From the NCBI RefSeq assembly GCF_023264675.1, contig NZ_JAHFVG010000001.1:124001-188000 (forward strand): DNA of 64,000 nt, given 5' to 3'. The notes below the pieces were generated by a model that worked only from the letters and a program-made list of their open reading frames with translations, was not told the DNA's origin and did not search any database. Positions within the stretch are counted from its first letter, which is position 1, and each line of letters opens with the position of its first letter. A program made the translations under genes and the position numbers. Shown here piece after piece: positions 4,896 to 29,242 of this stretch. The stretch is from Rhodococcus sp. (in: high G+C Gram-positive bacteria) (GTDB lineage Bacteria; Actinomycetota; Actinomycetes; Mycobacteriales; Mycobacteriaceae).

Positions 4896-4916
4896 GCTTC
4901 ATGCATCATATGTCAT
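4896..4916 (-). promoter_or_regulatory. Heptad motif, copy A
   Basis: Reading leftward: ATGACAT, ATGATGC, ATGAAGC, three perfect 7-base direct repeats. TATGAT inside it resembles an actinobacterial -10 box. It stands 21 bases before the SPFH lipoprotein TTG. Confidence 0.75.
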
Positions 4917-4941
4917 TTGACAGACGGAAAGCGAACTCAGG

Positions 4942-5121
4942 TCAGAAGGACGAACATCCCGAGTCGCCACTGCTGAACGAGGAGCTGCTATCGAAGCTCG
5001 AAGTGAAGCTGCTGGAGATTGCGGCCGAGCTGGCGTAGACGGTGCTGTCGTTGTTGCGGCGACGGCGCTGAGCTTCTTCGTCCTCGCGGCGGCGGCGTTC
5101 CTGGTCTTCGCGGTATCCCAT
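4942..5121 (-). CDS. Low-complexity Ser-rich protein, 59 aa
   Basis: ATG 5121 follows AGGAG at eight-base spacing. The N-terminal half is extremely charged (MGYREDQERRRREDEE) and the C-terminal half almost all Ser, Ala, Phe and Thr, ending SGDSGCSSF. Not a folded enzyme by appearance; it could be a disordered interaction protein. It sits between an NrdH-like redoxin gene and heptad motif A. Function unknown. Confidence 0.6.
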   Translation of the reverse strand: MGYREDQERRRREDEEAQRRRRNNDSTVYASSAAISSSFTSSFDSSSSFSSGDSGCSSF

Positions 5122-5131
5122 ATCAGTTCTC

Positions 5132-5392
5132 CTAGTTCTCGACCAAGTAGTTCTTGATCGCTTTGATGCGGTCCGGGCTGAAGCCGGTCCAGGTTTCGAG
5201 GTTTTCGCCCTGCTCGACGACGACGACGGGAAGTCCGCTGTAGCCGTATTGCATGACGAGTGCGTACGCTTCGGGGTCTTGTGTGACATCCCGAGAGAGG
5301 TACTGGATTTCGAGCTTGTCCATCTCCTGCTTGGTGAACTTGCAGCCCACGCAGTCAGGCTTGGTGAGGACGGTTACTTTCAGGTCTGACAT
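5132..5392 (-). CDS. NrdH-like redoxin (glutaredoxin-like)
   Basis: 86 aa from ATG 5392 (MSDLKVTVLTKP). The redox site is CVGC at residues 14-17, then SGLPVVVV with the cis-proline, and WTGFSPDRI near the end, close to the WSGFRPD motif of NrdH proteins. NrdH reduces class Ib ribonucleotide reductase. No reductase gene is visible here, so the protein may feed a phage enzyme outside the window or the host enzyme. It lies just downstream of the polynucleotide kinase gene. Confidence 0.85.
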   Translation of the reverse strand: MSDLKVTVLTKPDCVGCKFTKQEMDKLEIQYLSRDVTQDPEAYALVMQYGYSGLPVVVVEQGENLETWTGFSPDRIKAIKNYLVEN

Positions 5393-5409
5393 TCGATCTC
5401 TCTGTGTAG

Positions 5410-6363
5410 TTAGAAGTTGCCCTCTTGCACTTGAAAGCACTTGAGGCCCAACGCTCGCCACATGTCGATTACTTGCTTGCGGTCATCGAACACGCCGAGG
5501 ATGTGGTAGTTGTTGCGGATGTGCCGGTCGAAGATGTCGTACTTGACCTTGAAGTCGGGGCGCTTGTCGTTATCGCCACGCATCAGGAGTTTGTTGTAGC
5601 CAATTCCGTTGCTCGTGAGCCATTCTTCAGTTGCTTTGTAGCAGCTGGCATCCCGCCCACTTACTACCAGAATGACGAATCCGGACTCCCAGAGCGTCTT
5701 GGCTATCTCGACTACATGCTCGTCCGGTTCGTCCAGGTGGACCTGCGTGTAGTCGTAGGGGCTACGGCGGTCGCCCATATGCGCGAGTGTGCCGTCGATG
5801 TCGAAGATGTAGGTCAACGGCTTTCCCAAGTGGGGCGTGTATGGCTCCATCGGACCGGGTGCTGTCTCGCGTGCCGCGATCGCCGGCCAGCGGTTCTGCG
5901 GGAACTGCTTGTACAGCTTACGGATTACCTCTTCGCCGACTGTCCGCTCCCCCGCGAGGCCGCGTTGACGGTCGCGCTCGATGGCGTCTTCGAGCACCAC
6001 CTTGAAATCGACTACCTCGAAACGGATTCCGAGTTCCTTCGCGATCTCGGCCCAGATTCGTGCGTATTGCGCCCGAAGGTGCATGGCGTCGACAATGACG
6101 GACTTGCCCTGCTTGAGGAGTGCCCGGACTTGCGCTCGCTCGGCTGCGGACACTGCAGCTTCTTTGTCCTGAGTGAGGACGCCGCTCGAATTGAACAGCA
6201 TCTTGCGCAGATCGTCTCGATTGACCCGCGCGTGATGCTCGGACATGCCGGTCCAGAGTTCGGCGAACGAGGACTTGCCGCTGCCGGGAATGCCGCGTGT
6301 GACGAGGAGCTTCTGCTTGTCGTCGGTCAGCGCCTCCGCGCGAGCAACCTCGATAGGCTCCAC
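5410..6363 (-). CDS. Polynucleotide 5'-kinase / 3'-phosphatase
   Basis: 317 aa if GTG 6363 is the start; a CTG overlapping the upstream stop is an alternative. N-terminal P-loop kinase: GIPGSGKSS (Walker A), VNRDDLR and VIVDAMHLR. C-terminal HAD phosphatase: IFDIDGTLAH, then VVSGRD and VFDDR. The domain order matches T4 Pnkp, which repairs RNA or DNA ends by phosphorylating 5'-OH and removing 3'-phosphate or 2',3'-cyclic phosphate. With the RNA ligase at 7167-8933 and the RlaP-type protein at 9148 it forms an RNA-repair set, probably against tRNA-cleaving defence nucleases. Confidence 0.9.
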   Translation of the reverse strand: MEPIEVARAEALTDDKQKLLVTRGIPGSGKSSFAELWTGMSEHHARVNRDDLRKMLFNSSGVLTQDKEAAVSAAERAQVRALLKQGKSVIVDAMHLRAQYARIWAEIAKELGIRFEVVDFKVVLEDAIERDRQRGLAGERTVGEEVIRKLYKQFPQNRWPAIAARETAPGPMEPYTPHLGKPLTYIFDIDGTLAHMGDRRSPYDYTQVHLDEPDEHVVEIAKTLWESGFVILVVSGRDASCYKATEEWLTSNGIGYNKLLMRGDNDKRPDFKVKYDIFDRHIRNNYHILGVFDDRKQVIDMWRALGLKCFQVQEGNF

Positions 6364-6515
6364 TCGCCTGACGCGATCTGCCACGCTATGTACAGGAAGA
6401 GCATTGTCGCTCCGTAAACCAAGGCGGGCAAGAAGATCCAAACCCATGATGTGAGTGCTCCGATGAAGTAGAGGGCGCTAAGGGCGGCGGTAGGTAGAAG
6501 TACCGCCGCCCTCAA
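6327..6515 (-). CDS. Small two-span membrane protein, 62 aa
   Basis: TTG 6515 overlaps the stop of the preceding gene (TTGA). Two hydrophobic helices are visible (AAVLLPTAALSALYFIGAL and WIFLPALVYGATMLFLYIAW), followed by a basic tail SLSRLLARRR. It overlaps the kinase-phosphatase frame at its end. No family recognised; translation is likely coupled to the 52-aa membrane protein upstream. Confidence 0.6.
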   Translation of the reverse strand: MRAAVLLPTAALSALYFIGALTSWVWIFLPALVYGATMLFLYIAWQIASGEWSLSRLLARRR

Positions 6516-6670
6516 CTTTTGACTACCTTGGCGACCACGCCGACAAGGATAAGGAGGTAGATCGCAGCCGAAACCCACAGTGGCGCAAGTACGCCCCACC
6601 AGGACCAGTCGATGACATCGGTGAGTTTCAGGACTACGAAGACGAGTGTGAGTGCTTCGAGGAATCCCAT
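6512..6670 (-). CDS. Small two-span membrane protein, 52 aa
   Basis: ATG 6670 begins MGFLEALTLVFVVLKL, with a second hydrophobic segment VLAPLWVSAAIYLLILVGVV and a Trp-rich loop DWSWW between them. It is the first gene after heptad motif B, only 10 bases away. Function unknown. Confidence 0.65.
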   Translation of the reverse strand: MGFLEALTLVFVVLKLTDVIDWSWWGVLAPLWVSAAIYLLILVGVVAKVVKS

Positions 6671-6680
6671 GTGCTACAAC

Positions 6681-6701
6681 CTACCACATTTCATATGTCA
6701 T
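6681..6701 (-). promoter_or_regulatory. Heptad motif, copy B
   Basis: Leftward ATGACAT, ATGAAAT, GTGGTAG: two good heptads and a degenerate third. Located 10 bases before the ATG at 6670, so any transcript starting here would have a very short leader. Confidence 0.7.
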
Positions 6702-6706
6702 TTGGT

Positions 6707-6904
6707 CTACGGCTGAAGCGAGATCTCCTGGTCGGGAGTGAGGGTGTACCACTTCTTGCCGAACGCGCCTGTCAGCTCGACGCGGACATGTCCACTGGCC
6801 GGCTGGACGGTGGCGATGACGCCTGTGATCGGCCGGCTCTTGACCTTGGTTTCGATGCGGAGTTGCTCGCCGACGTGGGCTTGCTGTAGGTCGAGGACGT
6901 TCAC
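6707..6904 (-). CDS. Hypothetical protein, 65 aa
   Basis: GTG 6904 overlaps the upstream stop (GTGA). The sequence alternates hydrophobic and charged residues (GEQLRIETKVKSRPITGVIATVQP), typical of a small beta-barrel such as an SH3 or OB fold. Function unknown. It is the last gene before motif B. Confidence 0.65.
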   Translation of the reverse strand: MNVLDLQQAHVGEQLRIETKVKSRPITGVIATVQPASGHVRVELTGAFGKKWYTLTPDQEISLQP

Positions 6905-7170
6905 AGGTACTCCGGGAGGCCGAGTTGATTCTGGATGTTGTAGGTCGGCGCGGCCGGCACTGGCAGACCAGGGGCCGAGAGCGCGAGGGTGGCCTGGACC
7001 TGCGCCATATTGACCAGTATCCCGACCGCAAGGAACTCGACACTGGTGACCTCATCGAGGGGGATCTGGTCGATGGTCTTGTAGATCTCGATCGCCTGTC
7101 CCATGATCTCGACAGCCTTGCCGCGATGCTCCTCGGCGGTCCAGTTCATTATTTCTGCTGGTGTGCTCAT
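6901..7170 (-). CDS. Hypothetical protein, 89 aa
   Basis: ATG 7170 (MSTPAEIMNW) overlaps the RNA-ligase stop by 4 bases. N-terminal helical region EEHRGKAVEIMGQAIEIYKTI, a central hydrophobic helix and a Pro/Ala-rich tail ending QLGLPEYL. No recognised family. Coupling to the ligase fragment suggests co-expression with the RNA-repair genes. Confidence 0.65.
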   Translation of the reverse strand: MSTPAEIMNWTAEEHRGKAVEIMGQAIEIYKTIDQIPLDEVTSVEFLAVGILVNMAQVQATLALSAPGLPVPAAPTYNIQNQLGLPEYL

Positions 7171-7781
7171 GCGTATGCTGCTTCCGCTTCGATGTCTTCT
7201 ACGTCGGCGTCGATCATCTTCGTTTCGTGCTGAAAGAAGATGGGGCTCTTGGCCTTCAGGATGGTGGGGGTGAGCCCTTCCTTGCGGATGCAGATGCCCT
7301 CGTCGACTGTGTTGGGGTCGCTGAGCGCGATGGCCTGGCGGTAGCCGAGGTCGACCCGGTAGTCCACGTCGAGGTAGTAGTCGACGCTGAGGTCCCCTGC
7401 CTTGCCGCGCCACAGCTCGGGGGTGGTGGAGAGGCCGTGGTTGCGGCAAAACTCGACGGTCTGGTCCCAGGTGAGGTCGGTCTGGACGCCCTGCGGGTTG
7501 ACTTGACTCACCCTATAGACGTACAGCTCGGCCTGGCCCACGGGGAGGTCGTAGGTGTACCCCTTCTGGATGGGTCGTCCGTCTGGAAGCCAGCCGATGA
7601 GTTCACCGAAGACGATGAAGCCATCAGGCAGGAGGCCGTCGAGGCGCTTGCCGTACTCACTCCACAGGTCAGTGCCGTAGTAGTGCGCCTGGTTAGGGTT
7701 GTTGGCGTCCTTGATGACCTTGCGGCTGCCGTAGACATTGTCGTACTCGTTACGGGCAATTCGAATCTTCGGAAACTTCAC
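7167..7781 (-). CDS. RNA ligase, C-terminal fragment of split gene
   Basis: 204 aa from GTG 7781, whose first bases overlap the endonuclease stop (GTGA) with AAGGAG nine bases upstream, so it can be translated on its own. It carries the ligase motifs missing from the upstream fragment: GFIVFGELIGW (motif III), VDEGICIRKEG (motif IV, preceded by VDYYLD) and LKAK (motif V lysines). The N-terminal fragment with the KxHG motif is at 8247-8933 in the same numerical frame. Together they make a DRB0094-type RNA ligase. Whether the parts are joined by splicing or associate as two subunits cannot be told from sequence. Confidence 0.85.
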   Translation of the reverse strand: MKFPKIRIARNEYDNVYGSRKVIKDANNPNQAHYYGTDLWSEYGKRLDGLLPDGFIVFGELIGWLPDGRPIQKGYTYDLPVGQAELYVYRVSQVNPQGVQTDLTWDQTVEFCRNHGLSTTPELWRGKAGDLSVDYYLDVDYRVDLGYRQAIALSDPNTVDEGICIRKEGLTPTILKAKSPIFFQHETKMIDADVEDIEAEAAYA

Positions 7782-8269
7782 TTTGCCTTGCTCCTTCGTA
7801 GGTCTCTTGCATATTTCGCACAAGCTGCACGGCATTCGGAGCACCGGCAACCCTTGCGATAGGCGCGGCGCGTGCCACATATCACCGGCTTGTTATAAAT
7901 GAGTGGGTTCTCTTCCGCATAGTCCAGGATCTCTTGGATGCGCTTGCTGCGACGTTCACTCATATGCGGAAGAATCGCCTGCATGACGGGAACTACATCG
8001 GCCCTCTTCGACGCCTGGAAGATGTACATCTGCTTCGCATGAGCACGCCGGGGATCTTTGCGGCGCTCTTTGTAGACGTTGCCGATACCTATCGTTCGAT
8101 GAAGTTTGTCGATAGTGTCCTCGTCCGTCATGCCGCACGTAATCTGGATCTGACGAACCTTAGGGCCTGATGTGCGTCCCCCTTCCGCGCCGAGCGTGAA
8201 ACTGCCCTCGCCTTCGAGTAGTCCAGCCACCCAGGCTGTCTCAACCTCATCCAAGCTCGGCCACCCCAA
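7778..8269 (-). CDS. LAGLIDADG homing endonuclease inside the RNA ligase gene
   Basis: 163 aa. The single LAGLIDADG motif is WVAGLLEGEGSF at about residues 13-24, so it should act as a homodimer. The middle has the usual basic strands (TIGIGNVYKERRKDPRR); the C-terminus CGTRRAYRKGCRCSECRAAC is a Cys-rich element likely to bind zinc. TTG 8269 lies within the end of the ligase N-fragment and the stop overlaps the start of the C-fragment. It is out of frame with both, so it is not an intein. The open frame fills almost the whole interruption, leaving no room for a separate intron core. Confidence 0.88.
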   Translation of the reverse strand: MGWPSLDEVETAWVAGLLEGEGSFTLGAEGGRTSGPKVRQIQITCGMTDEDTIDKLHRTIGIGNVYKERRKDPRRAHAKQMYIFQASKRADVVPVMQAILPHMSERRSKRIQEILDYAEENPLIYNKPVICGTRRAYRKGCRCSECRAACAKYARDLRRSKAK

Positions 8270-8933
8270 CCTTAAGAAGCAATCTTTCTAGCCAGTTCAG
8301 CTTGCGGCGAACGATTGTTCGCCCGACCCTCAGGCTCGTTCCGTGTAGCTTCTGCGTGCAGACGACCTGATCGTCCGGCGAGAGCAACTGGTCGGCCACG
8401 CGGCGGTACTGCAACGTGTCGAAATGTTCCGGTAAAAACTTGGCATCGACGCGGTTGAACTTCTTCGTTGTCTTCTTGTTTACGTCGCGAACGGGCGCGC
8501 GTGGCCGTTCGTACTTCCGCAGGATCTCGTGGCCGTTGATGGTGTCGAAGGTGTCGCCGTCTTCGAGCTGCTCGATGGCGATTCCCGTGTACGCGAGGCT
8601 GTCGAGCGGCAGGAACATCGCGTCGGAGCGATGCCCCCCGAGCTTGATTGCCTTGCAGCGACGGTTATCTTCGAGGTAGCCGATTGCTTCGGGGTCCTTG
8701 TTGAACTCCGCGTGACGCATGAGGCTGTTTTCGTAGGCGAACTCCTCGGACATGCGAGACTCGGCGGGGATGAAGACGCCGAGATCGCCTTCCTGCCAGC
8801 CCTTCTGGGCGATGGCCTGGTAGCCGAACAACGGCAGGCCGACGATGCGGTCCCGGCCTTTGAGTGCGACGACAGCCTTCACGGTGGTGATTACTGCGGC
8901 GTAGTTCGGGTTGACGGGCGGTTCGAACTTCAA
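8247..8933 (-). CDS. RNA ligase, N-terminal fragment of split gene
   Basis: 228 aa from TTG 8933, which has GGAG eight bases upstream; an ATG at 8954 lies inside heptad motif C and is less likely. The N-terminal region resembles the OB-type domain of DraRnl-like ligases, and TQKLHGTSLRVG holds the nucleotidyl-lysine motif KxHG. The frame ends soon after RRKLNWLERLLLKVGV with four extra residues (AELG) before TGA, exactly where the endonuclease gene begins. Family members continue here into the EYDNVYGSRK region found in the downstream fragment. Confidence 0.88.
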   Translation of the reverse strand: MKFEPPVNPNYAAVITTVKAVVALKGRDRIVGLPLFGYQAIAQKGWQEGDLGVFIPAESRMSEEFAYENSLMRHAEFNKDPEAIGYLEDNRRCKAIKLGGHRSDAMFLPLDSLAYTGIAIEQLEDGDTFDTINGHEILRKYERPRAPVRDVNKKTTKKFNRVDAKFLPEHFDTLQYRRVADQLLSPDDQVVCTQKLHGTSLRVGRTIVRRKLNWLERLLLKVGVAELG

Positions 8934-8943
8934 CTGAGTTGCT

Positions 8944-8964
8944 CCTTCAAGCATCTTGTGTCAT
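8944..8964 (-). promoter_or_regulatory. Heptad motif, copy C
   Basis: Leftward ATGACAC, AAGATGC, TTGAAGG. It overlaps an in-frame ATG that should therefore not be taken as the ligase start; the TTG at 8933 is 10 bases downstream. Confidence 0.65.
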
Positions 8965-11790: not shown

Positions 11791-11811
11791 GCTTCAAGTG
11801 TCATATGCCAT
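11791..11811 (-). promoter_or_regulatory. Heptad motif, copy D
   Basis: Leftward ATGGCAT, ATGACAC, TTGAAGC. Sits in the 37-base gap between the zinc-ribbon gene at 11812 and the gene starting at 11774. Confidence 0.7.
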
Positions 11812-14309: not shown

Positions 14310-14668
14310 TACTTGTTCTCCAAAGGTGTTCCGTAGCCTGCCATTCGAAGCAGGGTGGTCATTTCGTCGAGGGGTAGGACCGCCAACCGGAGTGGGGCCT
14401 TACCGGGCCTGGACCGCTTCCACGAGATGAACCCCGTGTCAGCTTGGGCGTGGATCTTCTGGTCCGCGAGCTGATTGAGCCACTCGGTCCAGTTCGGTGT
14501 CTTCACGTCCTTGACTTGAATTACCGCGCCAGGAGAGAGGGAGATGTCCGATTTGTCGTGAAGCGTTCCAGCCCTTGTGCGCTCAGCTCCAGGGAAGCCG
14601 CGCTCACGGACAATGGCGAGCACTGCCCTTTCCTCGACATCGCCCTTGATTTTCATTCTGTTGACCAC
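14309..14668 (-). CDS. PD-(D/E)XK nuclease, Holliday-junction-resolvase-like
   Basis: 119 aa from GTG 14668. The pattern GDVEERAVLAIVRERGFPGAERTRAG, then DKSDISL and VIQVKDVK, gives the Glu, Asp and (Q)xK residues of a PD-(D/E)XK core; a Gln replaces the usual Glu in the last motif, as in some phage members. The C-terminus FISWKRSRPGKAPLRLAVL fits actinophage resolvase-like proteins. It probably cuts branched DNA during replication or recombination. Neighbours are a WhiB protein and small membrane protein genes. Confidence 0.75.
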   Translation of the reverse strand: MVNRMKIKGDVEERAVLAIVRERGFPGAERTRAGTLHDKSDISLSPGAVIQVKDVKTPNWTEWLNQLADQKIHAQADTGFISWKRSRPGKAPLRLAVLPLDEMTTLLRMAGYGTPLENK

Positions 14669-14967
14669 TACAACTCGTCCCTCGTGGGGTAGGAGGCGAT
14701 GATCTGCAGCTTGCGGGTCGCCTCGCGCTCGTATTTCGTGTTCGGCATCTCAGGGACGGGGACGCCAGCCCAGACGAGGCCAACTCGGGCCTGTGCGCCG
14801 AGACTCAGTGCGTACCGGGCGCATTCGACCGGTACGGGGCAACCGTCGCAAGCGGAGTTCGCGCTAGCGGTCTGCCCCTTGCCACGGTTGTCCGAGTCGT
14901 ACTGTTCGTATTCGGTTGTGCCCCGGCACTTGGCCTTGACCATCCAGTCGCGGGATTCGAGGCTCAT
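14668..14967 (-). CDS. WhiB-family transcriptional regulator
   Basis: 99 aa from ATG 14967, overlapping the esterase stop (ATGA). The four Fe-S cysteines are visible: AKCRGT, then ACDGCPVPVEC (Cx2Cx5C), followed by GLVWAGVPV, the G-[VI]-W-x-G turn of WhiB proteins. A basic C-terminus (KYEREATRKLQ) could contact DNA. WhiB proteins bind 4Fe-4S and work through the sigma factor; phage versions can downregulate host whiB genes. It might read the phage promoters, but no direct evidence links it to the heptad motif. Confidence 0.88.
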   Translation of the reverse strand: MSLESRDWMVKAKCRGTTEYEQYDSDNRGKGQTASANSACDGCPVPVECARYALSLGAQARVGLVWAGVPVPEMPNTKYEREATRKLQIIASYPTRDEL

Positions 14968-16675: not shown

Positions 16676-17110
16676 TCAGAAGGGCGGGTCCTCGGATGCA
16701 CCGTTGAAGTCGTCCTTGGACTGCGAGGATGCCGACTTGAACGAGCTGGTGCCGCTGCCGCCGTTGCCGTTCTTCTTGAACAGCTTGTAGGAGAGCAGGT
16801 TCAGCTGGTCGCGCGACTTCTTCTCGCCTGTGTTCTTGTCTTCCCACGACTCGGTGGAAACCTCGGCCATGAGCTGGATCGAGTCACCCTTGCGAGCTTC
16901 CTCGTTGAGGCGCTCGGCCAGTTCGTACCAGGCAACGCCGTTCGCCCAGTGCTCGGCGACCTTCTTCCAGCCGCTCTGCTCCGAGTCGTCCTTCTTGGAC
17001 TTGTCGTTGACGAGCCGAACGCGCGCCTTGGCGACGGAGTTCTGGCCGATGTACTGAAGTTCCGGGTCCGCTGCGAGGCGGTACGTCCCGGTGATGATGC
17101 TGAGTGCCAT
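16676..17110 (-). CDS. ssb: Single-stranded DNA-binding protein
   Basis: 144 aa. N-terminal OB fold starting MALSIITGTYRLAADPELQYIG, with WKKVAEHWANGVAWYELAE and SIQLMAEVSTESWEDKNTGEKKSRDQLNL, the typical SSB strand pattern. A Gly/Ser/Asn-rich linker leads to the acidic tip EDPPF, which replaces the DDIPF tail that recruits repair proteins. It should coat ssDNA during phage replication and RecT-mediated recombination. The DnaB-type helicase and initiator lie upstream in the same direction. Confidence 0.93.
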   Translation of the reverse strand: MALSIITGTYRLAADPELQYIGQNSVAKARVRLVNDKSKKDDSEQSGWKKVAEHWANGVAWYELAERLNEEARKGDSIQLMAEVSTESWEDKNTGEKKSRDQLNLLSYKLFKKNGNGGSGTSSFKSASSQSKDDFNGASEDPPF

Positions 17111-17332: not shown

Positions 17333-17353
17333 ATCTCAAACACCATATGTCAT
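17333..17353 (-). promoter_or_regulatory. Heptad motif, copy E
   Basis: Leftward ATGACAT, ATGGTGT, TTGAGAT. Contains TATGGT as a possible -10. Between the 29-aa membrane protein and the 50-aa zinc protein. Confidence 0.7.
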
Positions 17354-18494: not shown

Positions 18495-18640
18495 GAGCCT
18501 GCCCGTTTCACACGCAACCGCTCGTAGGCTCGGTCCTGGTCGCCAGCTTCCGCAAGGAGCGCGTCTTTGCACGCCATCATCGGCGCGCCGGACCGCTCCC
18601 TGAGCTGACGAATCTCGGCGATGGTGAGGTCGGCACTCAC
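18491..18640 (-). CDS. EF-Ts N-terminal (UBA-like) miniprotein, 49 aa
   Basis: GTG 18640 overlaps the FDXHR stop, and the TGA overlaps the next GTG. The sequence IRQLRERSGAPMMACKDAL then EAGDQDRAYERLRVK aligns almost residue for residue with the start of bacterial EF-Ts (LRERTGAGMMDCKKAL, EANGD, A-E-x-LR). Only this three-helix module is present; the EF-Ts core that exchanges EF-Tu nucleotide is absent. It could bind EF-Tu or mimic this part of EF-Ts. Not seen: any catalytic motif. Confidence 0.8.
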   Translation of the reverse strand: MSADLTIAEIRQLRERSGAPMMACKDALLAEAGDQDRAYERLRVKRAGS

Positions 18641-18891
18641 TCGGCCTCTTCCTCGGACTTGCCGGCGATGGTGAGGGCTGGATAGGCGCGATCCGGTGCC
18701 TGCTCCAGGCCGGCGTCGGCCGGCGACTTACAGAGCCCGTGCGGATAGCGTGAGTACTCGTTGCTGCGATGCTTGTCGAAGGCGGTGATCCCTACAAATG
18801 TGAGGTGGCAGCCTGCGCAGTGGCATGTATTCGCGCCGCCCCAGATTGCGCCGCATTTCTCGCAGCCGTACTTACCCTGTGGAAGTTCCAT
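18637..18891 (-). CDS. FDXHR-family putative zinc-binding protein
   Basis: 84 aa from ATG 18891, with AAGGCGAG upstream; a GTG at 18918 lies inside motif F and is not favoured. CEKCGAIWGG, then CHCAGCHLTF and the family signature AFDKHRS, followed by CKSP. Cys and His are arranged to bind zinc. The family is widespread in actinophages; its function is unknown. It is coupled to the EF-Ts-like gene. Confidence 0.82.
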   Translation of the reverse strand: MELPQGKYGCEKCGAIWGGANTCHCAGCHLTFVGITAFDKHRSNEYSRYPHGLCKSPADAGLEQAPDRAYPALTIAGKSEEEAE

Positions 18892-18911: not shown

Positions 18912-18932
18912 GTTTCACGCATCATATCGCAT
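18912..18932 (-). promoter_or_regulatory. Heptad motif, copy F
   Basis: Leftward ATGCGAT, ATGATGC, GTGAAAC, with TATGAT inside. Directly follows the DnaB-type helicase stop (18936) and lies 20 bases before the FDXHR ATG. Confidence 0.72.
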
Positions 18933-18935: not shown

Positions 18936-20231
18936 TCAGCCGAACTTGGCCATGTGCGGTCGATATGGCAAGGAGATGATCGCGCCGGCCACTCCGGTTC
19001 GATTCTTGCCGAGGTGGATCTGGACTTCCCCGGTGCCAATGCCTTCGATCTCTTCGTGGTGCAGGAGCATGACTACGTCGGCGTTTTGCTCCAGCGTGCC
19101 GGACTCGCGGAGGTCTGACGGCTTCGGTACCGAATTGTCCTGTGCGGGTCCCCGATTGAGCTGCGCTGCGATGAGCACGGCGCAGTCGAGATCTTTGGCC
19201 ATGAGGGTACACATCCACGAGATATGGCTGAGCTGCTGCTCACGGCCGACTCGAGAGTTGCTGGCCCGGACTAGGCCGATGTGGTCGATGACGATCACGT
19301 CGGGACCCTTGCCGGCTTGCTTCATCTGCTTGGCGATGGCCCACATCTTCTCGATCTTGACCGAGCTGTCGTCTACGACGTAGAGGTCCAGATCGCTCGC
19401 CCGCTCGACGAACATGCCGATGCGGTTGAGGTTGAAGGAGTCGATCTCGCGCTTGGTGATCTGACCGTAATTCGCTTCAGCCTGGGCTGCGACGATGCGG
19501 GAGGTGACTTCGCGGCGCGGCATCTCCAGCGAGAAGACGAGCGCGGTGCCGCCCGTCTCGGCGACGTGCGCGGCCATATTGAGCGCGCCGATGGTCTTAC
19601 CGTGTCCAGGTCGGCCGGCCATGATGTAGGTCCTCATCGAGTGCAGCCCACCAGCCAGTCGCTCATTGAGGTCGTCCCAGGGCGTTGGGAAGACGCGGGA
19701 GTTCTCCGGGTCTTCGTTGAGCCAGTCGAGCCACTCGTCGACCATCTCCCCGAAGCGCTGCGCGGTGAGTGGCGCTCCCCCGTTCTCACTGAGCGCTCGG
19801 AGCTGTGCGTGGGCGAACTCCATCGCCTCGTCATAGGAGTCGACCTCCGTGACGGCCTGCGCGCTTCTCTTCAGCGCTTGCGTAAGACCCCTCCAGCGCG
19901 ACTTTTCGCGCACAGAAACCGCCGAGGGGTACAACTCGGCCTCGTCGACATACTGACCGTAGACACGCTCGACCAGAGCCTCACGGTTCGGCACCTCGAT
20001 CATCTCGACCAGAATCGAGCGACGACTGATGCGCTTGCCGGCATCATGGATGGACTTCGCAGCCCTCCAGATCTCCCCGTTGCCCGTCAGATAGAAGTCA
20101 TCCGGCTCGACCGCCTGGAACAGCTCAGGCAGGAGATGCTTGAAGTTCGACGACGTAGCCGCCGCCGCCAGCTGGAACTCCCCATGCTCATCCTGGAGAA
20201 GAGACTCGTCTACGTCGAACTCGGTGGTCAC
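18936..20231 (-). CDS. DnaB-type replicative helicase
   Basis: 431 aa. N-terminal helical domain (ATSSNFKHLLPELFQ), linker, then RecA-like motor: Walker A MAGRPGHGKT near residue 205, LVFSLEMPRREV, Walker B VIVIDHIGLV near residue 302, and LIAAQLNRGP with the sensor Gln. LRESGTLEQNADVVMLLH is the usual DnaB motif H4. It unwinds DNA at the phage fork, and the protein encoded just upstream may load it. The gene is coupled to that protein by a 4-base overlap. Confidence 0.93.
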   Translation of the reverse strand: MTTEFDVDESLLQDEHGEFQLAAAATSSNFKHLLPELFQAVEPDDFYLTGNGEIWRAAKSIHDAGKRISRRSILVEMIEVPNREALVERVYGQYVDEAELYPSAVSVREKSRWRGLTQALKRSAQAVTEVDSYDEAMEFAHAQLRALSENGGAPLTAQRFGEMVDEWLDWLNEDPENSRVFPTPWDDLNERLAGGLHSMRTYIMAGRPGHGKTIGALNMAAHVAETGGTALVFSLEMPRREVTSRIVAAQAEANYGQITKREIDSFNLNRIGMFVERASDLDLYVVDDSSVKIEKMWAIAKQMKQAGKGPDVIVIDHIGLVRASNSRVGREQQLSHISWMCTLMAKDLDCAVLIAAQLNRGPAQDNSVPKPSDLRESGTLEQNADVVMLLHHEEIEGIGTGEVQIHLGKNRTGVAGAIISLPYRPHMAKFG

Positions 20232-21889: not shown

Positions 21890-22032
21890 TCCCCCGCCCT
21901 GCGTTCCAGATGCAGAAAGTGAACAGACGGCAGTGGGGTCACCAACAGGTAGTGCATCAGCTTCCGATGCCGCTCGATCCGTCGCTCTCTTGCGAGTCGG
22001 TCCATCACGGCACGCGCCCTGTTCTTCCTCAC
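21886..22032 (-). CDS. Small basic protein, 48 aa
   Basis: GTG 22032 overlaps the initiator stop and its TGA overlaps the next ATG. Highly basic N-terminus MRKNRARAVMDRLARERR, then a hydrophobic segment LMHYLLVTPLPSVHFL. Possibly membrane- or nucleic-acid-associated. Function unknown. Confidence 0.52.
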   Translation of the reverse strand: MRKNRARAVMDRLARERRIERHRKLMHYLLVTPLPSVHFLHLERRAGE

Positions 22033-22883
22033 GACGCCGCCTCGATGCTTAGCGGTGCGAACGGATCGATCGCGGCGGGAGGGGGGCTATTGGGGGGTGG
22101 GTTCTTTTCGAGGTGGGACATATACGCCATTCCCCGTTGCGAAGCGGTTTGAATTGAAGAGCGCTGAGGAAGAGGGGATTCGTCGAGATAGCGACCTTGG
22201 TTTAACCAAGTTGTCGGCATTGCCGTGAATTGATCCTCACGGTTTGGATCTTCGGCATATCGCTTTGCTGCTTCGATTATCAATTCGGGATCGTTATCTC
22301 GAATTGCAATCTCAAACTTGGTCTGAGCTGCTTTGCGGCCGGACTTACGAGGATAGCACACCCAGAACCGGTCGAACAGTTCTTGCCGCTGGGTGGGCGT
22401 GCGCGTCCGCGCGCGTTTAGAGAGTACGTCAGTACTCTCTTCTAACTCTTCTTCTTCTTCTGCTTGGACGACCCTTGGATTTTGCTTAAGCGGTTGCTTA
22501 GCAGGTGCTTGAGCATCTGCTTGCGCTTTCCGGGCGTTCTCGGCCCTCGTCAGACCGCCTTTTCTACCCGCTGACCTGGCCTTTTCCACCGCTTCGTCGA
22601 TCTCAGCCTTGCTCTGCTGGTGCTCCAAGTAGTCAGTAAATTGGATGCCAGGTGGCGACTCAATTACTTCGACACCTTTCAGTGATTCGATCGCAATCCT
22701 GTCGCGTTTTGTCGCCAAACCGTTCCAGACGACCTTCGAAACGAACCCGTCCGTCTTGTACTCGCGGCAGTGGCACCAGGCTTCGATGAGCACAAACTTC
22801 TGCCCCTTGGTCAGTTCTGCGTAGTTCGGGTGGCGCGGCATATCGACCGTGATGGTGATAAAAGTGCGGTTATCTTTAGGCAT
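22029..22883 (-). CDS. Phage replication initiator-like protein
   Basis: 284 aa from ATG 22883 with GGAAGA upstream. N-terminal winged-helix-like part (NYAELTKGQKFVLIEAWCHC, SKVVWNGLATKRDRIAIESL), a low-complexity linker rich in Ala, Gln, Lys and Glu, then FDRFWVCYPRKSGRKAAQTKFE and AMPTTWLNQGRYLD, the C-terminal signature of lambda-O/DnaD-like phage replication proteins. It should bind the origin and bring in the helicase. Codon use in the linker repeats GCTTG-like words but this is explained by coding. Confidence 0.78.
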   Translation of the reverse strand: MPKDNRTFITITVDMPRHPNYAELTKGQKFVLIEAWCHCREYKTDGFVSKVVWNGLATKRDRIAIESLKGVEVIESPPGIQFTDYLEHQQSKAEIDEAVEKARSAGRKGGLTRAENARKAQADAQAPAKQPLKQNPRVVQAEEEEELEESTDVLSKRARTRTPTQRQELFDRFWVCYPRKSGRKAAQTKFEIAIRDNDPELIIEAAKRYAEDPNREDQFTAMPTTWLNQGRYLDESPLPQRSSIQTASQRGMAYMSHLEKNPPPNSPPPAAIDPFAPLSIEAAS

Positions 22884-23079
22884 TTCGTCTTCCAATAGTG
22901 TCAATTTCTCGCTGCTTCTGGATTCGTTTCTCAAGCGCGATTGCCTCCTCCCAGATGTCCATTAGTTCCTCTGGGTCTTCGCATTCTTCGGCCTCATTTA
23001 TCACCGCCCAGGACTGACGAAAAAGTCCGTTAGCCTTTTCTCCCAAGCCGGGAATGTCAGTCCATTGGAGGCTGCTCAC
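22876..23079 (-). CDS. Hypothetical helical protein, 67 aa
   Basis: GTG 23079 overlaps the upstream stop (GTGA). Sequence SLQWTDIPGLGEKANGLFRQSW then an acidic helix EAEECEDPEELMDIWEEAI and basic tail. Overlaps the initiator start by eight bases. Function unknown. Confidence 0.58.
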   Translation of the reverse strand: MSSLQWTDIPGLGEKANGLFRQSWAVINEAEECEDPEELMDIWEEAIALEKRIQKQREIDTIGRRNA

Positions 23080-23249
23080 GAGATGTTCAGGGGAGTTTTC
23101 TTTCCCCCGCAGCGGCCCCTCAGGGAGGTATAGAGGGCCTCATGTTCGGCGCAGTACACCTGGCGTCCCCACTGCTTCCACTCGACCTCGACCACCGCGA
23201 CCCCCTCGCACGAGGCGAAGAGATCGCGGTGACTGCATGTCTCATGCAT
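23076..23249 (-). CDS. Small Cys/His protein, 57 aa
   Basis: ATG 23249 gives MHETCSHRDLFASCEG, then VEVEWKQWGRQVYCAEHEALY and a late Cys: a likely CHC(C) zinc site. The ATG lies inside heptad motif G; the next in-frame GTG would remove the first two Cys, so the ATG is preferred. The stop overlaps the next GTG. Function unknown. Confidence 0.6.
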   Translation of the reverse strand: MHETCSHRDLFASCEGVAVVEVEWKQWGRQVYCAEHEALYTSLRGRCGGKKTPLNIS

Positions 23250-23259
23250 CATGTGTCAT
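23239..23259 (-). promoter_or_regulatory. Heptad motif, copy G
   Basis: Leftward ATGACAC, ATGATGC, ATGAGAC, the most regular copy. It contains the start codon of the 57-aa gene, so here it cannot simply be a -10 box with a normal leader. Confidence 0.65.
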
Positions 23260-23447
23260 TTCGGACCTTGAGCATGAGCGTTGTACCACTCGATGAGATC
23301 CTCCGTCTTGATGGAGATCTTCTTCCCGAAGCGGCGCACAGGAAGTCGCATCGCCCGGATCTCGTTGGAGAGGTACCGCTCGCTGAGGCTGACGTAGTCG
23401 GCAGCGTCCTTCAGGCCCATCGCGAGGGGCACGGCAGGCTGTGTCAC
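23256..23447 (-). CDS. Excisionase/MerR-like HTH protein, 63 aa
   Basis: GTG 23447 overlaps the upstream stop. GLKDAADYVSLSERYLSNEIRAMRLP then RRFGKKISIKTEDLIEWY is the helix-turn-helix-17 (AlpA/Xis-like) fold with its recognition helix and wing. It may be an excisionase or an early regulator. Its last gene position before motif G could make it a regulator of its own block. Confidence 0.78.
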   Translation of the reverse strand: MTQPAVPLAMGLKDAADYVSLSERYLSNEIRAMRLPVRRFGKKISIKTEDLIEWYNAHAQGPK

Positions 23448-23731
23448 GAGATGTCTTCCTTTACCGCCGCTGCCGCCGCGATCCAGCCGTCCTGAGACTC
23501 CTTCGGGATTTCCGACCAGCGAGGCGGCACCGAGCAGGTAGCGACCTTCTTGGCCCATGCGTCGTAAGCCAGCTCCCCGAGGTTTTCGGTGGAGTACAGC
23601 TCGTCCTCGATCGCGGCGGTGAACTCATCGAATGCGCGCTCGACGGTCCCGCAGATCTCGATGCCGTAGCGCTCCTGGACCTCGTTGAACATGGTCTGGA
23701 ATGCGTCTGTCACGACGCTCGCGTGGCTCAC
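23444..23731 (-). CDS. Hypothetical protein, 95 aa
   Basis: GTG 23731 overlaps the RecT stop. Helical; ERYGIEICGTVERAFDEFTAAIEDEL and WAKKVATCSVPPRWSEIPKESQ. Coupling to recT suggests a role in recombination but no motif supports it. Confidence 0.58.
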   Translation of the reverse strand: MSHASVVTDAFQTMFNEVQERYGIEICGTVERAFDEFTAAIEDELYSTENLGELAYDAWAKKVATCSVPPRWSEIPKESQDGWIAAAAAVKEDIS

Positions 23732-24567
23732 AGCTCGACCGTCTCTGCATCTTCGGTGCCGGCGTCTTCTGCCGGGTACTCCTCGATAACCTCGGAGCCG
23801 GATAGGTCTGCGACGATCTCGCCGTCGAAGATCTCACCTTCAGCTTCGGCGGCTTCGGCCGACTGGCTCTCGATGGTCGGCTCCCCCACCTCGACGAGCG
23901 TCGGCGGCTGCATGTAGGCGGCGCGGTCCTCGTTGGATGTGGCGACGAACTTCTCCAGGCGGTTGACGGCCGACTTGAGGTACATCTCGGTTTCCCACTT
24001 GTTCCAGACGGGGCCACCCATGGAGCGGACCTTCTTGATGTAGCCGGCGTCGGCGACACCTACCTGGGTGGGCTTGCCGTCGTGGTGGACGGCGTAGGCG
24101 TACGACATGACGGGCTTGATGCCGCCGTTGCGTGCGATCCAGTCGATCTCGTGCGTCGGGACATCGTCGGTGTTGGGATTGAAGCTGAACTTCTCACCCT
24201 CGTAGACGACCTCGGCGACGACCTTCTGGTACCGGCCGCTGTTGAGGATGCGCTGGATGATGCCCTTGTAGCTCTCCCAGCCTTCGACGGCGTTGCCCTT
24301 GGGGACGAGGTAGAAGCGGTCGGTTCCAGGCTCGTGGCCGAGGCGCGCGCATTCCATGAGCGAGCGCATGAGGCTGGCCGGGTTGGCGGCTGCCGCTTTG
24401 CGCAGGTTGTCATTCTTGTTGACTGCCGACTGCGCGAGTCGAAGCCAGGTGTTGCCGTTGGTGTTCCACTGCGCGGGGAGGACGGTGAAGAAGTCCTCAG
24501 ATCGGCGCTGGATCAGGTTGGTCGGATCGTTGTCCTTGACCTTGGCGATCTCGTTGGTGATGCTCAT
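23728..24567 (-). CDS. RecT-family single-strand annealing protein
   Basis: 279 aa. RecT signature is clear: RRSEDFFTVLPAQWN, LRLAQSAVNKN, SLMRSLMECARLGHEPG, FYLVPKGNAVEGWESYKGIIQ, VVAEVVYEGEKFSF and PVWNKWETEMYLKSAVNRLEK. The tail is acidic and low-complexity. RecT anneals complementary ssDNA after a 5' exonuclease resects the duplex. The YqaJ exonuclease gene lies 2.3 kb upstream, so the two form a RecET-like pair. Confidence 0.93.
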   Translation of the reverse strand: MSITNEIAKVKDNDPTNLIQRRSEDFFTVLPAQWNTNGNTWLRLAQSAVNKNDNLRKAAAANPASLMRSLMECARLGHEPGTDRFYLVPKGNAVEGWESYKGIIQRILNSGRYQKVVAEVVYEGEKFSFNPNTDDVPTHEIDWIARNGGIKPVMSYAYAVHHDGKPTQVGVADAGYIKKVRSMGGPVWNKWETEMYLKSAVNRLEKFVATSNEDRAAYMQPPTLVEVGEPTIESQSAEAAEAEGEIFDGEIVADLSGSEVIEEYPAEDAGTEDAETVEL

Positions 24568-24821: not shown

Positions 24822-24842
24822 GGTTCATAAATCATATCGCAT
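24822..24842 (-). promoter_or_regulatory. Heptad motif, copy H
   Basis: Leftward ATGCGAT, ATGATTT, ATGAACC, with TATGAT inside. Lies 36 bases before the TTG at 24785 and just below a 26-base dyad. Confidence 0.72.
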
Positions 24843-26161: not shown

Positions 26162-26271
26162 CTCATTCCCGACTTGATGAGTGCCCAGAACAAGATCCCG
26201 AAGCCGACGACGAAGAACACGATCGAACCGACGTTGCCGATCCACATCATGATGAACTGGAAGGTCGTCAT
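26158..26271 (-). CDS. Single-span miniprotein, 37 aa
   Basis: ATG 26271 overlaps the HNH stop (ATGA). MTTFQFIMMWIGNVGSIVFF and VVGFGILFWALI make one long or two short hydrophobic segments, ending KSGMR. Function unknown. Confidence 0.5.
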   Translation of the reverse strand: MTTFQFIMMWIGNVGSIVFFVVGFGILFWALIKSGMR

Positions 26272-26822: not shown

Positions 26823-27790
26823 GCCGCGACCTTCTTCTTCGGCTTGCGGATCACGGTCGACGCCTTGTCGGGGTGGACGCCGGACTTGACGAACGGCTCA
26901 CCCTTGCCGCGAGGGCGCTGGCGGTAGGCCACCTTCTGCTCGCCGGCCATGGCGATGCGCGCGAGGCCCATCTTCATTGCGATCTGGTTCTTAACCTCCA
27001 GGTGCCGCTCCTCTGCAGCCTTCAGGTCCGTCTGGACCTTCCACCAACGGTCGGCTAGTTTCGGGTCTACCTGAACCACGCGGTCCTCGATCAGGGGGTG
27101 CATCTCCTTGATGGCGTCGTACGTCGCCATGTGGCCGTCGAGGTCCGGCTGGATGTCGTTCTCCAGTGCGTGAATGAACTTGCGGCCCTCTTCGCGGAGG
27201 TACTCCAGATCCTCAGTGCTCGGCTTGATCCGGTACGTCCTCGGCTGGTTACCGGAAATGAGGCAGCGGATCAGCGCCTTATCGAGGCCAAGAACGTCGC
27301 AGTACCACGAGACCTGAGCCCTGTAGTAAATCGGGACGACATCCGACCCGTCCGGTCCCCAGAAGTCCGGCCGGCCGACGTTCTTGATCTCCAGCAGGTC
27401 GACGAGTTCGTCTCCGTGCCACATGAGCCCGTCCGGGTTGGCGATCTGCCAGGGCCGGTCGATGTGCGAGAAGGTGTGCCCCGTCGTCATACGGAGGCCC
27501 TTCTTCATGTGATTCTGGACGTATTCCTGGTAGATGACGGGCTCCATGAGGGTGCCCCATTTCATCGGCTCGGATTCGTCGATCGCTCGGAGCTTGTCCT
27601 TCTTCCGGTAGTAGAGGGAGAAGTAGGACTCCCACTCGGAGAGCGCGACGACTGCGGCGATCTCGCTGCCGCCGAGGCCAACTGCGCGCGCGGCGTGCCA
27701 TTCGGGCGAGCCGGATTCGAATTGACCAACGAGCTTGGCCTGACCGTTGACGAGGTCCGGGACGACGCTCGGGTCCATGGAGAGCTTCAC
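26819..27790 (-). CDS. YqaJ/lambda-exonuclease-type recombinase exonuclease
   Basis: 323 aa from GTG 27790 (overlaps upstream stop). SGSPEWHAARAVGLGGSEIAAVV is the family start; GTLMEPVIYQEYV, NPDGLMWHGDELVDLLEIKNV (Asp and ExK catalytic residues) and AQVSWYCDVLG complete the nuclease core. It chews 5' ends to give 3' overhangs on which RecT (23728) acts. The C-terminus is basic (RKPKKKVAA). Confidence 0.92.
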   Translation of the reverse strand: MKLSMDPSVVPDLVNGQAKLVGQFESGSPEWHAARAVGLGGSEIAAVVALSEWESYFSLYYRKKDKLRAIDESEPMKWGTLMEPVIYQEYVQNHMKKGLRMTTGHTFSHIDRPWQIANPDGLMWHGDELVDLLEIKNVGRPDFWGPDGSDVVPIYYRAQVSWYCDVLGLDKALIRCLISGNQPRTYRIKPSTEDLEYLREEGRKFIHALENDIQPDLDGHMATYDAIKEMHPLIEDRVVQVDPKLADRWWKVQTDLKAAEERHLEVKNQIAMKMGLARIAMAGEQKVAYRQRPRGKGEPFVKSGVHPDKASTVIRKPKKKVAA

Positions 27791-28209
27791 TGGCCGGCCA
27801 GCTCCTTGTTGATGTCTTCGATGGCGATCTGCGCGGCCATGCGGACGTTCATCAGATCCTCGATCGAAACCTTCTGGGCGCGCATAGCATCCAGAACCTT
27901 CTCGCACGCCTTCTCGACGCGGCGGTAGGCCATGAGGATGTTCAGCTCGCGCGCGGCCTCGATCACGACGGCATGCCCAGGCTCAACGAGGAAGTGCTCT
28001 AGGATGCCGTGCATGGTGGCGCGCATCTTGTGGTAGCCGTCGAACAGGGAGGACTGGTGGTCGGCGTAGAACGCTTCACCGGGGACGGAGAGCTTGACGT
28101 TTCCATCTTCGTCGATCTCGGTGATGTGGACGATCGTCATCGACTCGAAGCCGAAGGGTCCCTTGCGAATCAGGACGCAGGGTGCGCCCTCTTTTGCCCA
28201 GGTGCTCAT
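27787..28209 (-). CDS. Hypothetical protein, 140 aa
   Basis: ATG 28209 (MSTWAKEGAPCVLIRK) overlaps the upstream stop. N-terminal beta-rich part (SMTIVHITEIDEDGNVKLSV) then helices (ARELNILMAYRRVEKACEKVLDAMRAQ). Often encoded beside phage exonucleases by position; no function recognised. Confidence 0.6.
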   Translation of the reverse strand: MSTWAKEGAPCVLIRKGPFGFESMTIVHITEIDEDGNVKLSVPGEAFYADHQSSLFDGYHKMRATMHGILEHFLVEPGHAVVIEAARELNILMAYRRVEKACEKVLDAMRAQKVSIEDLMNVRMAAQIAIEDINKELAGQ

Positions 28210-28604
28210 CTGCTTGCCTCTGCTTCTTGCCGGCGAGCGTGGTTGACGGACCACTCGCTGCGGCCGGTGATGATGGATGCCTCACGCGCGGTGAGGTTTC
28301 GGTTGACCATGACGGCACGGATGTCGTCGGGGATCGGGGCGGCGCGGCCAGTCTTGCGGTTGGCCATCTCCTCGACTGCAGCGTGGAGGTCGGATTCCTT
28401 CACCCAGCGGACCGACCTGCCGGTGATCCGGTATTCCTTGAGGACGCCGGCCGTGATCCACTTCGTGACGGTCTGGCGGTCGCGGTCGACGATCTCCGAT
28501 GCGGTCTGGATGGTGACGTAGTCCTCACGGTTGTGAGTGATTCGCCCTACCCGTCCGAGGCTTCCGGTGACGTAGTTGCTGCGCGACTGCAGTGCGCTGG
28601 TCAT
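28206..28604 (-). CDS. MerR/excisionase-like HTH protein, 132 aa
   Basis: ATG 28604 overlaps the upstream stop. DYVTIQTASEIVDRDRQTVTKWI then RITGRSVRWVKESDLHAAVEEM is a winged helix-turn-helix with the DNA-binding turn after ITAGVLKEY. A second helix pair LTAREASIITGRSEWSVNHARR at the end resembles another HTH. Likely early regulator, possibly of the heptad-motif promoters; this is inference from position. Confidence 0.72.
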   Translation of the reverse strand: MTSALQSRSNYVTGSLGRVGRITHNREDYVTIQTASEIVDRDRQTVTKWITAGVLKEYRITGRSVRWVKESDLHAAVEEMANRKTGRAAPIPDDIRAVMVNRNLTAREASIITGRSEWSVNHARRQEAEASR

Positions 28605-28843
28605 CGGTTCTTCCCTGCGGGGTGGCGCAGCTTCGAGTTGAGGCGCTCGATCTCGGTGAGGGCTTCCTTGTGCGCTGGCACGAGTTCGTTCGACATGAAG
28701 TCGGACATGGCCAGGAGTGCGGAGAGGTCGCTCTCTTTGACGCCGGCCGTGTTCCCTGGGAGGAATGCCATGGAGAGGGAGATGAGGTGCGGGGCCAGTG
28801 CGAGCCGTAGCTCGTCCCACTGGTCCAAGGTCTGTTGTGACAC
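28601..28843 (-). CDS. Hypothetical helical protein, 80 aa
   Basis: GTG 28843 with AGGA seven bases upstream; an ATG at 28978 lies within motif I and the segment between has poor coding character. Helical protein (QQTLDQWDELRLALAPHLISL, KEALTEIERLNSKLRH). First gene of the leftward early operon. Function unknown. Confidence 0.6.
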   Translation of the reverse strand: MSQQTLDQWDELRLALAPHLISLSMAFLPGNTAGVKESDLSALLAMSDFMSNELVPAHKEALTEIERLNSKLRHPAGKNR

Positions 28844-29242
28844 TGAGAGTCCTTGCGATATGGTCCTGATTGCACCTTCTCCAGAGGCGCTGAGGCCCGT
28901 TCCCTTTCGAGGGGGCGGGCCTCTTCTCGTTCTGGGGCTCGAAGAAGATGCGATCTGCTTTCCTACTTCACAAATCATATCTCATTTGGCGCAGATGTCG
29001 AACCAGCATGAACAACTACGTAACGGCCGGTTTGAGCCGGTCCAAGCAGTCTCGATGTCTACGTGATGTAGATCACACCATTACGGGCGTTAAGTGTCAC
29101 ACGCTGCATGAATCTTGCACCATTTGGACAGTCGTCAAGAAAAAAGAGCCCTCACCAGGGCAAACCGAGTTGCCTCAACAAGTTGCGTGAGACATACTCC
29201 ATGTGTATCGCAAACAACTCGGGGAAGAGACAGGAGAACGAA
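28844..29242. promoter_or_regulatory. Divergent early/lysogeny control region
   Basis: 399 bases without a gene between the first leftward gene (28843) and the rightward HTH gene (29243). It contains a hairpin GAGGCCCG/CGGGCCTC at 28892-28923 in the leftward leader, heptad motif I (28965-28985), and element GCAGTCTCGATGTC (29046-29059) followed by the palindrome GTGATGTAGATCAC (29063-29076), a GlxR/CRP-like site. The second copy of that element is at 31087-31118. Confidence 0.65.
28965..28985 (-). promoter_or_regulatory. Heptad motif, copy I
   Basis: Leftward ATGAGAT, ATGATTT, GTGAAGT, with TATGAT inside. It heads the leftward operon; the transcript would have a leader of over 100 bases with one hairpin. 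Confidence 0.72.

Follow-up and report, generated by a model that had tools for sequence, protein, structure and literature searches.

What reads a 21-bp element that recurs ahead of one gene block after another in a prophage, and to what effect? The question arises in a Rhodococcus sp. genome (assembly GCF_023264675.1), at positions 124,001 to 188,000 of contig NZ_JAHFVG010000001.1 (C109). This stretch of 64,000 nucleotides is referred to as the window, and positions are window positions unless C109 is named. An earlier note, made from the sequence alone, had described nine leftward copies of the element, each composed of three ATGA-N3 heptads, and had taken them for a phage-specific promoter or operator that serves as a regulon signal across 24 kb. 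Confinement to a prophage, intergenic placement, orientation and a -10-like box all support such a signal. We propose, with a probability of roughly 0.64, that the element is a 21-bp operator lying over the -10 region of at least 14 promoters served by the host RNA polymerase, and that an HTH_3 repressor encoded by the prophage (29243-29659) binds it and silences the blocks behind it in the lysogen.

Copies of the element and their confinement to a prophage

All nine copies were found where they had been reported, on the minus strand. A 24-column position weight matrix (PWM) built on them gave scores of 29.9 to 39.6, compared to a maximum of 17.6 in 20 shuffles. In leave-one-out scans, the left-out copy was outscored by at most eight window positions, which is the number of other copies. 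A degenerate pattern matched the window 8 times against 0.28 expected; seven matches were copies and one (2339-2356) was not, while the copies at 6681 and 8944 were missed. Scanning 60 kb to the left of the window revealed five further copies, C109:71546(-), 83814(-), 101092(-), 112734(+) and 122171(-). The prophage thus holds at least 14 copies, 13 on the minus strand and one on the plus strand. The leftward orientation holds within the window, whereas the copy at C109:112734 points rightward, before rightward genes.

The motif begins two bases further 5′ than had been described, with AA (each base in 12 of 14 copies), and the 14-copy consensus is AAATGnCAtATGATGCrTGAA (21 bp). Among lags 1 to 12, column self-similarity was highest at 7 bp (column-permutation p = 0.0005), in line with the heptads of the earlier note. 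Three ATGA units are an idealisation: by reading of the nine window copies, ATGA is exact in six first, seven second and three third heptads, and all three are exact in two copies (4896 and 23239). A register-shifted match lies 7 bp from copy 11791 because the motif has this internal repeat. A weak fifteenth copy, 29103..29123(-), stands in tandem upstream of copy 28965 (PWM score, 15.7; local shuffle p = 0.00125).

The prophage is bracketed by a 46-bp direct repeat, found at C109:61846, outside the window, and at C109:155320 (window 31320..31365). The repeat corresponds to the 3′ part of a tRNA-Thr gene (cgt; 31320-31393), which is intact at the right end. The open reading frame (ORF) adjoining the left repeat (C109:62024-63328) resembles a tyrosine integrase by eye, judged without a family search. 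All 14 copies lie inside these limits. A search of the 6.38-Mb genome with the consensus, allowing three mismatches, returned 12 matches, all in the prophage, and a reversed-pattern control returned none; the copies that it missed are C109:130681 (window 6681) and the plus-strand copy at 112734. No match to the 1-mismatch pattern was detected in 100 relatives. Pattern searches retrieved 11 viral contigs and 14 loci in genome contigs, the latter none actinobacterial by title, with one match each. By PWM, 10 of the 11 viral loci had one match above 18 and the remaining locus had none; the 8 of these 11 records that were scanned whole also had one match each. We read these matches as chance occurrences.

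As had been reported, the copies stand in front of gene blocks. Their midpoints are intergenic in 14/14 cases (noncoding fraction, 0.10; our own gene caller). A gene start follows within 150 bp in the direction of the motif in 12/14 cases when the caller is retrained on the prophage, and in 11/14 with another gene set, compared to 1/14 in the opposite direction. Every copy is oriented with the block that follows it, the rightward copy included, if a doubtful 32-aa plus-strand call is disregarded. Some copies, such as C109:112734 and window 23239, reach into the final bases of the gene before them.

The blocks headed by the motif include recT, a YqaJ-type recombinase operon, the replication initiator, and the genes for single-stranded DNA-binding protein (SSB), RNA ligase and polynucleotide kinase, as well as a head-tail connector block outside the window. 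The window copies, all on the minus strand, are placed as follows. Copy 4896..4916 (ATGACATATGATGCATGAAGC) precedes a lipoprotein gene (4874-4053, phrog_200), and 6681..6701 precedes a 52-aa gene and a polynucleotide kinase/phosphatase gene (5410-6447). Copies 8944..8964 and 11791..11811 are followed by an RNA ligase-like gene (8247-8933, phrog_968) and by 11774-11454, respectively. Copy 17333..17353 lies 223 nt upstream of the SSB gene (16676-17110), with the doubtful 32-aa call in between. Directly downstream of a DnaB-like gene (18936-20231), copy 18912..18932 heads a zinc-binding gene (18637-18891). Copy G, 23239..23259, is located upstream of the replication-initiator gene (22029-22934); it had been thought to sit on a start codon and instead overlaps the TGA stop with which ORF 23256-23558, upstream of it, ends. 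Copy 24822..24842 precedes 24785-24564, which is followed by recT (23728-24567).

The next called start lies 11 to 44 nt downstream in 8/14 copies, a distance that would suit a signal for translation, either start-associated or in a leader RNA. The other six copies lie 77 to 255 nt before the start, and the copies hold a -10-like box; we regard a translational signal as very improbable.

Promoter-like anatomy and the candidate readers

The -10-like box occupies motif positions 7 to 12 and reads [TC]ATGAT or similar. Its second place is A in 14/14 copies and its last place T in 12/14; 12/14 boxes fit NANNNT and 8/14 fit TANNNT. Five window copies contain TATGAT or TATGGT, as the earlier note had stated, and 13/14 copies have a purine at the predicted +1. 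No -35 box is shared by the 14 copies, also in agreement with that note: the best match to TTGACA averaged 2.71 of 6 positions versus 2.60 in shuffled sequence (P = 0.33), and a match of at least 5/6 was present in one copy. Only copy 28965 has such a box nearby, TCGACA, 16 bp upstream. Thus, of the features of a sigma-A type promoter, the -10 at a fixed place is present and the -35 is not. A phage-encoded sigma factor was not detected either: none of the 19 Sigma70_r2 matches in the genome falls on C109, other sigma families not having been searched. The -10-like box is probably a working -10.

Copy 28965..28985(-) lies in the divergent region next to the repressor gene, at a putative early-left promoter (TCGACA-N16-TATGAT). 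The operon behind it carries HTH_17 and YqaJ-type recombinase genes. Between this copy and the first early gene, at about 28890-28930, stands a GC-rich inverted repeat (GAGGCCCG...CGGGCCTC), possibly a leader hairpin or attenuator.

The proposed reader is the HTH_3 (XRE) repressor on the other side of this region (29243..29659, +), a protein of 138 aa. Its longest ORF starts at 29108; we took ATG 29243 as the start because homology begins there. The protein matched 34 Gordonia phage records at about 30 to 42% identity (best, 42.3% among the matches listed), and these homologues are annotated as immunity or transcriptional repressors, Cro, HTH proteins or hypothetical proteins. A single-protein query of viral contigs confirmed no repressor relative, and a query with an alignment gave nine. 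Relatives were absent from 36 members of the genus and present in 10 of 400 members of the family (33 to 39% identity). The stretches of five of these ten carried no operator-like multicopy motif, with information content near that of shuffles; the exceptions were genome G231 (18.8 versus 16.0 shuffled), whose motif is ribosome-binding-site-like, and, slightly, G118 (17.0 versus 16.4). A phmmer search of PDB sequences (E <= 1) returned no L5-type repressor chain and no useful relative of the protein.

A structural model built from six sequences (mean pLDDT, 81.7; pTM, 0.54) predicts helices within residues 10 to 79, a short helix at 94 to 98 and a long one at 101 to 137, that is, an HTH bundle with one long C-terminal helix and no second globular domain. 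This arrangement makes oligomerisation possible. It is plausible that the heptads are read by a putative oligomeric protein, several subunits of which would bind them.

Other DNA-binding proteins of the prophage are potential readers. The earlier note had named a WhiB-like protein (14668..14967, -) and the HTH proteins at 23256 and 28206, two small HTH_17 (excisionase-like) proteins (23256-23558 and 28206-28604) that score below the Pfam cut-off. These seem less likely than the HTH_3 repressor, whose homologues in Gordonia phages are encoded beside analogous motifs. A second XRE regulator of 149 aa (30420..30869, +), also of the HTH_3 family and near the early region, might instead read the same set of operators. 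By tblastn (E <= 0.01) against eight related-phage sequences, six of them partial, it had no match, whereas the 29243 protein matched seven. Moreover, 0/23 motif matches in phage Bantam adjoin the other annotated Bantam repressor, gp66. We consider it improbable that this protein, or another DNA-binding protein of the prophage, takes the place of the HTH_3 repressor.

Putative operators and repressors of related Gordonia phages

Among the matches listed, the closest phages by terminase were DatBoi, Mollymur, SpeedDemon, Daredevil and Bantam (65 to 66%), and the closest by NAMPT was OneUp (62%). Passages of PMC5559632 and PMC10865867 assign Smoothie to CQ1, OneUp and BrutonGaster to CQ2, and Mollymur and Daredevil to DL. 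The relatives were partly covered, by halves of Smoothie, Bantam, Daredevil, Mollymur and VanLee and by part of BrutonGaster. We employed a home-made de novo motif finder on upstream regions, with shuffles as the control. In our own prophage, the element ranked second of three motifs, with an information content of 22.1 (10 sites) versus 16.7 to 17.0 in shuffles; the top motif was a tRNA-like one, described below. In the relatives, for which shuffles gave 15.9 to 16.9, the finder recovered TGTCTAA-type sites in OneUp and the Smoothie half (21.2 each). It gave AACATCCAACA in Morgana (24.5), and TGTTGCNTGTCTCG in the halves of three phages, namely Bantam (23.5), Daredevil (24.4) and Mollymur (21.3). 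The BrutonGaster part gave an unconvincing motif (16.6, fourth-ranked, versus 15.4 shuffled), and the OneUp PWM has 11 matches above 15 there. At scores of at least 20, there were 17 sites in OneUp, 16 in Smoothie, 20 in Bantam and 24 in Morgana.

Each repressor type goes with one motif. CQ phages, with the repressor segment LHTTTVVRLITG, carry TGTCTAA-TGTCTAA-YGCAACA; Bantam, Daredevil and Mollymur, with HPST[VL]SR[VL]IRG, carry TGTTGCNTGTCTCG; and Morgana, with VSPTTVHRLIDG, carries AACATCCAACA. The motif type thus tracks the recognition-helix segment, a correspondence that is confounded with phylogeny. Above 15, the OneUp PWM matched 15 times in Smoothie, twice in Morgana and never in Bantam, VanLee or this prophage. 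The Bantam and Morgana PWMs also had cross-matches, one each, in OneUp and Smoothie, respectively. Single shuffles reached 22.8. The absence of the motif in front of orthologous operons in related phages, together with transcript ends elsewhere, had been named as a result that would refute the regulon. In its letters, the motif is indeed absent, our PWM having no match above 12 in six related-phage sequences (Daredevil and Mollymur were not scanned). In kind it is present: these phages, except VanLee, carry other multicopy motifs. A motif copy adjoins the repressor gene in 8/8 motif-bearing phages, this prophage included, the OneUp copy being weak (16.5). A copy precedes recT in 5/8, namely in Bantam, Daredevil, Mollymur and Morgana and in this prophage, where one small gene intervenes.

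Some sequence is shared at the repressor gene itself. The 11-mer TGTCTCA[CT]GCA adjoins this gene in OneUp, BrutonGaster and Smoothie and also matches TGTCTCACGCAAC (29182..29194, -), which adjoins the repressor gene here; the plus strand of our copies 23239 and 18912 reads TGTCTCATGCA and TGTTTCACGCA. A 1-mismatch scan for the shared 11-13-mer found two other matches in the prophage. At the sequence level, this word is the only direct bridge between our motif and the family. By eye, TGAGACATGAT, located upstream of the repressor in Bantam, DatBoi, Daredevil and Mollymur, resembles ATGAGATATGAT of copy 28965.

The 7-bp lag was the top lag of column self-similarity in 5/5 motif sets, with values of 0.505 for our motif, 0.426 for OneUp, 0.387 for Smoothie, 0.457 for Bantam and 0.452 for Morgana (p = 0.0005 to 0.004). 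OneUp and Smoothie are not independent, so these amount to four independent motifs. As a control, we compared operator-like, other real and shuffled motifs at 10 sites each. The peak was at lag 7 in 7/8 operator-like de novo motifs (0.297 to 0.514; an inverted form from OneUp peaked at lag 8), in 1/22 other real motifs (0.302) and in 5/20 shuffled motifs (0.301 to 0.375). Since shuffled motifs also peak there, a lag-7 peak alone is weak evidence. The top motif of each genome reached peak heights (0.387 to 0.514) that exceeded every shuffled value, while two secondary operator-like motifs (0.297 and 0.379) did not stand out. CQ sites also occur in the inverted form TGTCTAN-N7-NTAGACA. Some CQ sites have canonical -35 boxes, and a full promoter (TTGACA-like-N16-19-TANNNT) overlaps 5/17 sites in OneUp and 4/16 in Smoothie, compared to 0.26 and 0.13 expected. 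In these nine sites, the -10 falls in one of two places, motif position 5 or -2, which differ by one heptad.

These results would suit a modular heptad code, in which one XRE repressor family reads about three 7-bp units, direct or inverted, in the same frame. Immunity types would diverge through new letters in the unit, with the 7-bp rhythm and some operator positions retained, and 14 to about 30 sites per genome would thereby shift in concert. We offer this code tentatively and hold it to be rather doubtful, in part because of the 5/20 shuffled motifs.

Several observations weigh against an operator regulon read by the HTH_3 repressor. The motif occurs in 11/36 leftward gaps of at least 35 bp and is missing from the other 25, and therefore is not the sole promoter signal. 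In this prophage it lacks a -35, whereas some of the CQ sites have one; an activator could thus be needed here. Full promoters overlap 0/20 sites in Bantam and 0/24 in Morgana, and sites fall inside genes in OneUp (5/17), Smoothie (5/16), Bantam (8/20) and Morgana (4/24). The VanLee half has no operator-like multicopy motif despite a homologous repressor, its best motif being coding-like (18.9 versus 15.9 to 16.7 shuffled). Finally, our motif shares little sequence with those of the relatives; therefore, what links it to the repressor is synteny, a single 11-13-mer in common and differences in the helix that are confounded with phylogeny.

The element might be an activator-dependent phage promoter. 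A phage protein, for example WhiB or one of the HTH_17 proteins, would then contact the AAATG part and bring the host polymerase to the -10-like box, in a positive switch like those of lambda CII and the T4 middle promoters. The missing -35, the fixed spacing from the conserved AAATG to the box, the orientation with genes and the presence of WhiB and HTH_17 genes in the prophage are in agreement with this. Conversely, all eight motif-bearing phages have a copy next to the repressor gene, complete promoters coincide with some CQ copies, as suits repression, and the motif occurs at the putative early-left promoter, which would act before phage activators are made. We consider activation unlikely. 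Repression is favored because of the copy at the divergent repressor/early region, the CQ copies over complete promoters and the spread over early and structural blocks. The HTH_3 protein is the probable reader, and probably represses rather than activates. The silenced blocks would serve recombination, replication and RNA repair and would include a few structural-gene blocks and the rightward cluster, and loss of the repressor would release all of them together.

Other features were noted beside these motifs. In OneUp, several small leftward genes among those at 81-93 kb are preceded by another repeated motif, TTGACTTCCACT, which consists of a -35-like box and a fixed extension. In Morgana, several sites of the AACATCCAAC motif are followed, by eye, by an inverted GTTGGATGTT-like arm, and the operator as a whole may form a longer inverted repeat. 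Behind copy C109:71546 lies an NAD-salvage/nucleotide block (C109:67686-70806) with a NAMPT-like gene (tblastn) and, by eye, neighboring PRPP-synthase-like and thymidylate-synthase-like genes. The tRNA-like motif of the de novo search belongs to ten short elements between genes of the rightward cluster (C109:111.9-119.2 kb, left of the window), one of which stands directly downstream of the sole rightward motif copy. They have an acceptor-like stem, a T-arm with a GGTTCGA loop and a small variable middle part, with no evident anticodon arm and no encoded CCA; of 11 predicted pairs, 5 show compensatory changes. An eleventh T-loop match, at 105029, was excluded from the set. ARAGORN called none of the ten without introns and two doubtful ones with the intron option. 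The Rfam tRNA model gave no match to them at E <= 1, and one sub-threshold tRNA-Sec match overlaps an element. At gathering scores, tRNA was the only Rfam family in window 1-31500.

Comparison with known repressor-operator systems

Among the closest parallels are the stoperators of L5-type cluster A phages. As described in parts of PMC9934374, PMC9283540 and PMC5559632, these are many asymmetric copies in short intergenic gaps, in one orientation to transcription, with one copy over the early-left promoter and an HTH-type repressor, all of which recalls the arrangement found here. Passages of PMC5559632 describe stoperators only for cluster A among Gordonia phages. The L5-type consensus is 13 bp and ends in TGTCAAG, whereas the present motif has 21 bp, a 7-bp repeat and a -10-like box. 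In the window, with two mismatches, L5/A15-type consensus words occurred at chance levels (GGTGGMTGTCAAG, 3 versus 3.08 expected; GGGGATTGTCAAG, 1 versus 1.24). The L5/TipsytheTRex repressor combines an HTH with a Stoperator domain, while our candidate has no detectable homology to it by PDB sequence search and its model lacks a second globular domain. The system is therefore like the L5 stoperators in its oriented intergenic sites and unlike them in consensus and repressor homology. The copies could still act as stoperators in the strict sense, with the bound repressor blocking elongating polymerase rather than initiation. Their number, single orientation and short intergenic placement fit the published description (parts of PMC9934374 and PMC9283540); the -10-like box, which stoperators do not require, the chance-level consensus and the lack of an L5-type chain among the PDB matches argue the other way, and we judge this quite improbable.

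The SPBRE element of SPbeta is similarly repeated in promoter regions of a prophage and read by a master repressor, MrpR, and its ChAP-seq peaks all fall within the SPbeta prophage (sections of PMC10516654). MrpR, a protein of tyrosine-recombinase fold, has a site of 15 bp, whereas the reader proposed here is an XRE protein with a 21-bp site and a 7-bp repeat; with this proposed reader, the present system differs from SPBRE in the type of repressor. Unspaced 7-bp units, direct or inverted and overlapping promoters, are known from Omega (ParB pSM19035) (PMC9499535), which is a ribbon-helix-helix protein with 7 to 10 heptads per site, compared to an HTH_3 protein and about three units here. The C repressor of P2 is a phage repressor on direct repeats that flank the -10 (PMC4752584), with repeats of 8 bp, 22 bp apart centre to centre, at one switch, whereas adjacent 7-bp units at at least 14 loci are seen here. 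The CQ and Bantam/Daredevil/Mollymur operators resemble ours in the homologous repressor, the copy adjoining its gene and the 7-bp lag, and differ in their letters and, in CQ, in the inverted forms and in the -35 boxes of some sites.

The open-licence literature searched yielded no description of these operators, subscription papers being outside the search. We propose that the system is a dispersed repressor-operator regulon, a further instance beside the L5 stoperators and SPbeta SPBRE and a member of neither. Silencing of a whole prophage through many operators has already been described for cluster A mycobacteriophages and SPbeta. If our proposal is correct, large Gordonia-type temperate phages would have a further solution, not detectably related to either and built on 7-bp units, which is unusual among HTH repressors. 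Their several immunity types, in each of which the repressor helix goes with its own set of sites, would constitute a natural data set for the co-evolution of repressors and their sites.

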